From NCBI GenBank assembly GCA_021234155.1, contig JAJEKV010000073.1, positions 1,708,001-1,772,000 on the forward strand: a DNA stretch of 64,000 nucleotides, read 5' to 3'. A program made the translations under genes and the position numbers. Each line of letters starts with the position of its first letter. Within the stretch, counting starts at the first letter, position 1. This document shows, piece by piece, positions 47,733 to 48,982 of the stretch. This DNA is from Isoetes taiwanensis. Taxonomy: Eukaryota; Streptophyta; Lycopodiopsida; Isoetales; Isoetaceae. The notes under the pieces are model-generated. The model made no database searches. It saw only the letters and a program-made list of their open reading frames with translations, and had not been told where the DNA came from.

Positions 47733-48982
47733 ATGGCTAATACCAAGAGCGCCCCGGACCCTTCTACCCTCAGCATCGTGGAGATTTATGCCATGATCGC
47801 CCGGTCCATGGCTACAGACCCGGCTTACATCGACATCCTTTTGGATGAGTTGGTGAACCGGTTTGAGAATAACGATAGGATCCCCTATCCTATCTATCAC
47901 TTCTCGGAGCCATTCCTGATCCGGCTGAACCTTCGTCTTACACCATCGTCGAGCAACATGACATGGTTATGATGCTGATTAAGTTCTATCCTCCCGAACA
48001 AGAGGGGCATACCGAGGAGGAGGACATCAGGACAGAAGCCGATCGCATTAGAGGTTTGGCTAGGGAAGATGACCATCGGGAGGTAGAGCGAGCAGATACG
48101 GCAGCTCGTGGAAGGGAGTACAAGTATTTAGGGGACGGATTTGCCGTTATAGATGGCAGGGCAATTGAGGTTCCCCCGTACCAATGGCATGAGGCTTCCC
48201 AGAGCTTCATGTGGGGACCCCCGATCCCCGATATCAGTCTGGACTACTTGACAACAATCCAGATTGACATGAACCAGCGACCTCACTGTTACCATGCTGA
48301 ACTCCTTCGCCGAAGCGCCGCAGAACAATACGCTCAGGTTCAGGAAGACCTGAGGGCGGCCCGAGAGTTCCGGGAAGAGCAGGAGAGGCTCGAACGGGAG
48401 AAGAAGGCTCGGCAAGACCAGTCAAACCCACAGGAGGAAGGGGGATCCGGAAGTGGGACGGGCCCGACTCCGATTGATCACGCGACCATTAAGCACCGGA
48501 GGAAGGCTGTGGCCCAAAAATCCGGCAGTCAATACAAGGAGAAATTGAAGACTGTCGGTGCTTTTGGCAAGAATGCGAGCTCCAGTCGGAGGCAGCAGCG
48601 GGTGGATACGTCCCGACCGACTGTCGGTGCCAAGACCGTGCCTGCACCAAGGGGGCCGCCTACCAACCCTGCCCCGCAAAGGAAGCCTCACCGATATAGA
48701 CCCGGCACCGTGGCTTTGCGGGAAATCCGCAAATTTCAGAAATCAACCCAGCTCCTGATACGGAAGCTCCCCTTCCAGAGGTTGGTCCGGGAGATTGCAC
48801 AGGAGTTTAAGACCGACCTCCGCTTCTAGACCTTTGCCATTTTGGCACTTCAAGAGGCTGCGGAGGCTTACCTGGTGGCAATTTTTGGTGACGCCAATCT
48901 TTGCGCGATCCACGCAAAGAGGGTAACCATAATGCCTAAGGATTTGGCCCTCGCCCGCAGGATTCGGGGGGAGCATCCTTAG
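47733..48982 (+). pseudogene. ORF A: retroelement protein with C-terminal histone H3 fold
   Basis: Start ATG at 47733 in good context (GCCATGG). One frameshift near 47915-47945 joins the first frame (MANTKSAPDPSTL...) to the second, which runs to 48829 and, past one TAG, to 48982. Total length is about 416 codons. The middle is charged with a Glu/Arg-rich probable coiled coil (about 48290-48420) and a Lys/Ser/Gly-rich linker. From 48683 the sequence is a whole histone H3 core: [40 protein letters not shown], then TAG at 48827-48829 in place of the conserved Gln, [27 protein letters not shown] and ARRIRGEHP before the stop. Loop 1 has normal H3 length, unlike CENH3. Tyr and Leu at the positions corresponding to H3 residues 41 and 90 match the H3.3 type. 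The Lys-rich H3 tail motifs (TKQTARKS, AARKS) are not preserved. Confidence 0.9.

Follow-up and report, generated by a model that had tools for sequence, protein, structure and literature searches.

We wondered why a plant retrotransposon should carry the core of a histone. The window, the whole stretch of 64,000 nucleotides of Isoetes taiwanensis DNA analysed here, contains an open reading frame (ORF A) whose 3' end, at 48683-48982, translates into the globular domain of histone H3 from K37 to the C-terminus (H3 residues 37-135), followed by a stop codon. A sequence-only reading had described a match to H3 with one TAG in place of a conserved Gln. This was borne out, as the Pfam family Histone scored above its curated cut-off in both halves (48683-48826, 8e-16; 48830-48979, 1.1e-18) and the single TAG between them falls on H3 position Q85. 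The first 48 amino acids matched solved H3 structures at 2.1e-25, the best being chain E of 7ux9, a Histone H3.3. That the H3 stands at the end of ORF A was also correct, but the TAG is not the only lesion of this copy: ORF A is additionally frame-shifted near 47960, where the frames 47643-47972 and 47963-48829 overlap. Other copies of the same element carry the complete fold. ORF A of copy L031 matched Pfam Histone at 2.6e-41, and the H3 of copy L032 aligned with solved H3 over 99 residues without a gap. At the Q85 codon, 41 of 43 compared sequences have Gln and one has His, the window copy being the one with TAG; copy L058 has a stop there as well. The canonical N-terminal tail of H3 with the context of K4, K9, K14 and K27 is absent, and the ORF A linker stands in its place, as had been proposed.

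The copy in the window belongs to a chromodomain Ty3 LTR family of Isoetes taiwanensis but is damaged and has lost part of pol. Its parts are the following:

45374-46941, + strand: 5' LTR (TG...CA), direct repeat with 53950-55532
46943-46955, + strand: primer-binding site TGGTATCAGAGCC, one base past the 5' LTR
47733-48982, + strand: ORF A, an N-terminal part of about 320 residues plus the C-terminal H3; broken here, open in other copies
48683-48982, + strand: histone H3 globular domain and stop codon, with Pfam Histone and solved-structure matches
48827-48829, + strand: TAG at H3 Q85 in the window copy
49183-50538, + strand: ORF B, a conserved protein without a Pfam family; 3' end frame-shifted in the window copy
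50791-51255, + strand: ORF C, about 154 codons following an acceptor-like CAG; start approximate
51520-53230, + strand: gag, zinc knuckle and aspartic protease (PF03732, PF19259 and PF08284 above cut-off; zinc knuckle weak)
53234-53566, + strand: frame that enters the reverse transcriptase (RT) region and is interrupted by a deletion at about 53498
53937-53949, + strand: polypurine tract, adjoining the start of the 3' LTR
53950-55532, + strand: 3' LTR, direct repeat with 45374-46941

We take the primer-binding site to be of the initiator tRNA-Met type. Three ORFs (A, B and C) thus precede gag, and the first of them ends in H3. The two LTRs of the window copy differ by 66 mismatches over 1564 aligned bases (K2P 0.044), a divergence that dates the insertion of this copy only. 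No matching 5-bp target-site duplication was found at this one damaged copy (ATTTC before, GTTGC after). By eye, both flanks (45300-45373 and 55533-55600) resemble fragments of LINE reverse transcriptases. The leader between primer site and ORF A holds two imperfect 87-bp direct repeats (47250-47444; 76% alike, spacing 108), and at 55967-57301 the window has an open frame of 444 aa, part of which looks like a coiled coil and whose C-terminus weakly resembles a RING domain (best 2.1e-4, under the cut-off). The frame changes at about 52300 within the gag-protease region, and comparison by blastn with copies L032, L041, L042 and L045 showed that about 2.9 kb of pol are missing at about 53498. The Ty3 order of gag-pol can be followed through gag and protease in the window and through protease, RT, RNase H and integrase in L045. 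Pfam matches in L045 were RVP_2 (2.2e-14), RVT_1 (1.8e-38), RNase H (5.4e-31) and SH3_Tf2-1 (1.2e-20), while the integrase core rve (3.3e-6, 27.7 bits) stayed under its cut-off of 32.6. In this one copy scanned, the C-terminus of the integrase carries a chromodomain (PF00385, 2.7e-8, 34 bits against a cut-off of 25.1).

A broken H3 in one damaged copy might be a one-off insertion or an assembly artefact. We therefore turn to the distribution of the segment in the genome. With the first 48 H3 residues as query, all of the best 150 of 5,050 genome candidates scored were matches. Fourteen of them scored as canonical H3, and the seven of these that were fetched all proved to be canonical host H3 genes. 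The other 136 did not look like host genes. From these we fetched 47 unique loci on many contigs, every one of which was of the element type, in line with the claim that the H3 travels with an element defined by LTRs, primer site and polypurine tract. Automatic counts of H3 genes in the I. taiwanensis genome may accordingly be inflated by element copies. Counted by eye, 44 of the 150 matches lie in open frames of at least 400 aa, although in one of these a TAG interrupts the match. The picture was the same when the search was made with DNA, all of the best 40 of 1,357 candidates scored being matches.

Other copies had been expected to keep the H3 open, and many do. Among the 47 unique fetched loci, the H3 frame is open to the last helix in 42 and to the H3 end in 37, and 17 are open from the start of ORF A, 300-340 residues upstream, to the H3 end; the frame is broken before the last helix in five and before the end in ten. 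These are the looser counts: a strict open-H3 pattern, which also rejects substituted copies, accepts 36 of the 47, and stricter patterns leave nine open ORF A copies instead of 17. Similarity-ranked lists favour well-preserved copies. Loci L001-L030 came top in the search with the first 48 H3 residues, and L031-L050 were chosen from the same H3 list for long open frames.

Queries from outside the H3 led to the same arrangement. Among the best 150 of 2,543 candidates scored with ORF B, at least 55 matches have a listed H3 464-540 bp upstream. Four high ORF B matches that are absent from the H3 list (L058-L061) all keep the second half of H3 in place. In these four, small frame-shifting indels lie in the first H3 half, the second half being nearly intact; the indels may stem from errors in assembling repeats. 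A query from the middle part of ORF A matched all of the best 150 of 2,734 candidates scored, at 70-100%, and at least 80 of these have a listed H3 551-888 bp downstream. In all 62 ORF A matches with a listed ORF B, the latter follows at 1058-1389 bp, which leaves room for the H3 (expected spacing 1133 bp with H3, as in the window, and about 830 without), so that no ORF A lacking H3 was found among these 62 spaced pairs; 43 of the 150 had neither H3 nor ORF B among the matches listed. For twenty loci of 10 kb the content was judged by where frames of 150 codons or more end: pieces of ORF B were seen in 19, of ORF C in 14 and of gag-pol in 17. LTR-like sequence lay within the fetched part of nine, and gag-pol of L035 is open over 1,307 codons. 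A scan of viral contigs with ORF A gave 34 pattern matches and no confirmed relative. The one-off capture that had been named beforehand as the refuting outcome did not occur, the H3 being family-wide in the best-scored matches. An insertion or artefact confined to the window would explain why its copy is broken, yet it is contradicted by 47 element-type loci on many contigs and by the H3-ORF B spacing in at least 55 pairs, and we regard it as barely conceivable.

A family-wide H3 could nevertheless be passive cargo, a captured segment without function, and the many damaged copies would suit this explanation. We estimated dN/dS from Nei-Gojobori counts pooled over pairs; since pooled pairs are not independent, the omega values are descriptions and carry no p-value. 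Over H3 codons 47-93, the half not used to rank L001-L030, 43 of 48 sequences (L001, L006, L008, L045 and L047 being left out for frame breaks) gave a dN of 0.020, a dS of 0.546 and an omega of 0.037, with dN raised because codons 89-93 are shifted in a few of the kept copies. Omega was 0.048 for the 24 sequences from L001-L030 over the same codons, 0.028 for the H3 of nine copies with open ORF A, and 0.013 for the separately chosen L058-L061 (3 nonsynonymous and 61 synonymous differences, six pairs). Over codons 47-90, 26 of the 43 copies encode one and the same protein but do so with 23 different DNA sequences. In each of the six divergence bins, pN/pS falls in the range 0.026-0.045. A dN/dS near 1 across copies, which had been set as the mark of cargo, is thus far from the observed range of 0.013-0.048, and no plausible error would turn an omega of 1 into 0.04. 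Passive cargo is contradicted by both the low omega and the low pN/pS, and we consider it highly improbable. The H3 part has been under very strong purifying selection and has long been retained, as a fusion and within the family.

The constraint on H3 was compared with that on the remaining proteins of the element. In the nine open copies, the rest of ORF A gave an omega of 0.064 over its first 100 columns, 0.128 over the next 100 and 0.219 thereafter, with 0.180 for the 75 columns before H3. Values were 0.055-0.091 for ORF B (5 copies), 0.042-0.075 for ORF C (12 copies), and 0.036 and 0.073 for RT (11 copies). The comparison with gag that had been suggested gave 0.028 for H3 (nine copies) against 0.058-0.144 for the N-terminal part of gag (8 copies of another subset). 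The omega of H3 is therefore at or below that of RT and below that of the other parts, with the proviso that copy subsets differ between proteins; H3 is not unique in this, because RT is under comparable constraint. We also considered mimicry of the H3 tail by the ORF A linker, in which many of 38 copies have a tetrapeptide like an H3-tail motif. Its 12-column block has an omega of 0.198 and hence no special constraint, and this candidate was rejected.

Where did the H3 come from? In a tree that left out the window copy, 42 element H3s formed one clade (100/100) apart from seven host H3s, which fits a single capture. Of 97 positions, the common element protein shares 85 with host H3 and differs at 12: Y54F, E59Q, S86T, S or T87F, V89I, G102A, E105G, T107A, I124L, Q125A, R134H and A135P. 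Position 134 is variable: of 43 sequences, 26 have His and 10 have Arg. The changes at 87 and 89 turn the alpha2 chaperone site, SAVL or TAVL in the host, into FAIL. E77 is common to the element and all seven fetched host H3s, while three aligned solved H3s have D, and a host-lineage H3 is for this reason the likely source. CENH3 has a longer loop 1 and a divergent fold. The element H3 has no insertion in loop 1 and shares 85 of 97 residues with host H3, so that a CENH3 origin was rejected, as the sequence-only reading had concluded. Of its further inference, Y41, L90 and the normal loop 1 are all present, but an H3.3-like source does not follow from them. Seven of seven fetched host H3 genes have both Y41 and L90, which are thus no mark of H3.3 in particular, and residue 31 of the tail has been lost. 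Synonymous differences between element and host are saturated; gene conversion by host H3 was rejected on this ground, and the capture must be old by comparison with the family.

The arginines R40, R42, R49, R63, R72 and R83 as well as C110, H113, R116, K122, D123 and R129, which we take to face DNA, H4 or the second H3, are all unchanged in the common element protein. Together with the strictly kept fold, this points to use as an H3. We therefore favour, with reasonable though limited confidence, a captured H3 that has been kept working: a tail-swapped H3 that would pair with host H4 and bring an element-specific domain to chromatin. A Ty3 chromodomain lineage would have captured a host H3 as the C-terminal domain of the accessory protein ORF A and kept it functional through many rounds of transposition. 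The H3 of ORF A would then pair with host H4, be handled by H3-H4 chaperones and enter or form nucleosomes, with the element part of about 320 residues taking the place of the modifiable H3 tail. Because the tail is replaced, the usual marks would be missing from such a nucleosome, which would display the domain of the element. In this way ORF A might serve the element by marking chromatin or binding to it, so as to block tail-based silencing or to anchor the pre-integration complex. We infer pairing with H4, entry into nucleosomes and a benefit to the element from conservation, and the same applies to targeting and anti-silencing roles, which the fusion would permit. Several points speak against a tail-swapped H3. 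The ORF A protein may never be produced or may stay out of chromatin, the FAIL site and the changes G102A, E105G and T107A could alter chaperone or nucleosome use, the 320-residue extension might hinder packing, and many copies are damaged.

The FAIL site also bears on a different idea, namely that ORF A acts as a decoy whose H3 fold occupies H4 and ASF1 or HIRA-type chaperones and so disturbs the deposition of silencing-competent H3 on new copies, with no need to enter nucleosomes. Conservation of the whole H3 fold and the Phe at position 87 of the chaperone site in the common protein would fit such a decoy. It would have no use for conserved DNA-facing residues, yet those that would contact DNA are kept in the common protein, and we think a decoy unlikely.

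We asked whether ORF A might be expressed as a protein of its own. The spacer between ORF A and ORF B holds three features:

49004-49031, + strand: TTGTAAAT ... AATAAA pair, directly after the H3 stop
49084-49097, + strand: palindrome TGCTGACGTCAGCA, 14 bases
49151-49178, + strand: polypyrimidine-rich stretch ending in TAG, 3' splice-site-like, just upstream of the ORF B ATG

Spacers were compared in the 41 of 48 sequences with the ORF B start pattern. The pair, presumably poly(A)-signal-like, is widely kept, with TTGTAAAT in 36 and AATAAA in 37 of the 41. The 13-base core TGCTGACGTCAGC of the palindrome occurs in 33 of 41 within a fast-changing, AT-rich surrounding; we take the palindrome to resemble a bZIP site, and ORF B may have in it a promoter element of the bZIP type. 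Upstream of the ORF B ATG, 40 of 41 spacers have a polypyrimidine-YAG acceptor-like site, and TTGCAG, likewise acceptor-like, precedes ORF C in all ten copies inspected out of 12. Read from these acceptor- and poly(A)-like sites, the ORFs would be expressed from separate mRNAs that arise through internal polyadenylation or splicing. The element has two further accessory proteins, ORF B and ORF C, that are likewise conserved (omega 0.04-0.09). Neither matched a Pfam family, the search for ORF C having covered the pieces tested, and structure prediction of ORF B from the window sequence alone gave a mean pLDDT of 35, too low to be of use.

This layout matters for a third explanation, in which the H3 together with host H4 coats or escorts the element cDNA or the pre-integration complex as a packaging or nuclear-import factor. 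ORF A is encoded in the element and travels with it, and the main text of a review of viral histones describes DNA viruses that package DNA with histones of their own (PMC9145170). On the other side, the frames scanned with Pfam held no second histone, and packaging into particles is not evident, since ORF A lies outside gag as an ORF of its own with a poly(A)-like signal behind it. We rate this explanation as quite unlikely. The favoured tail-swapped H3 can also be taken one step further. ORF A may supply an element-made nucleosome component, a tail-less H3 fusion that with host H4 would impose a chromatin state peculiar to the element on new or target insertions, beyond the reach of tail-reading silencing and alongside the chromodomain of the integrase; we offer this bolder version tentatively.

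Mobile genomes with their own histones are already described among DNA viruses. Single host-derived H3s are reported in the main text of the viral-histone review for DSLPV1, Sylvanvirus and phycodnavirus and mimivirus-like MAGs (PMC9145170), and our element likewise carries a host-derived single histone with a near-host fold in a mobile genome. As described there, these large-DNA-virus H3s resemble the element H3 in coming without other core histones, in a near-host globular domain (73-87% for the viral H3s, 85 of 97 residues here), in N-terminal extensions carried by some of them and in an altered alpha2 chaperone site, which reads TAIL in two viral H3s and FAIL in the element; the review considers this site likely critical (PMC9145170). 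They differ in that they belong to DNA viruses or viral MAGs, whereas the element is a Ty3 LTR family in a plant genome whose H3 tail is replaced by an ORF of about 320 residues and for which selection was measured across copies. The bracovirus histone CvBV-H4, again a host-derived core histone with an N-terminal extension, is incorporated into host nucleosomes and suppresses the host immune response, according to the same text; unlike the element H3 it is an H4 of a wasp polydnavirus, with a 38-residue extension and its tail lysines kept (PMC9145170). Orf1 of the nudivirus HzNV shares with ORF A a long unknown N-terminal region before a C-terminal histone part, but that part is a divergent H4-H3-like doublet with 30-40% identity in a DNA virus (PMC9145170).

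Plant chromoviruses, including the Tcn1-like elements of non-seed plants, have the same Ty3 gag-pol with a chromodomain after the integrase; histones go unmentioned in the passages that describe them (PMC2864245, PMC3350952), whereas here three ORFs precede gag and the first ends in H3. No histone-bearing retroelement was found among the papers listed in the literature searches, which excluded subscription papers and preprints; this is no proof of absence. The word retrotransposon is absent from the main text of the viral-histone review (PMC9145170), as is the word histone from the main text of the genome papers of I. taiwanensis (PMC8566536) and I. sinensis (PMC10541799). If our reading is true, a retrotransposon H3 under RT-like selection would represent a novel mode of interaction between a transposon and chromatin, one that changes nucleosomes directly and goes beyond avoiding, reading or recruiting silencing. 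An H3 whose tail has been naturally swapped for about 320 residues would also amount to an experiment on the need for the H3 tail.
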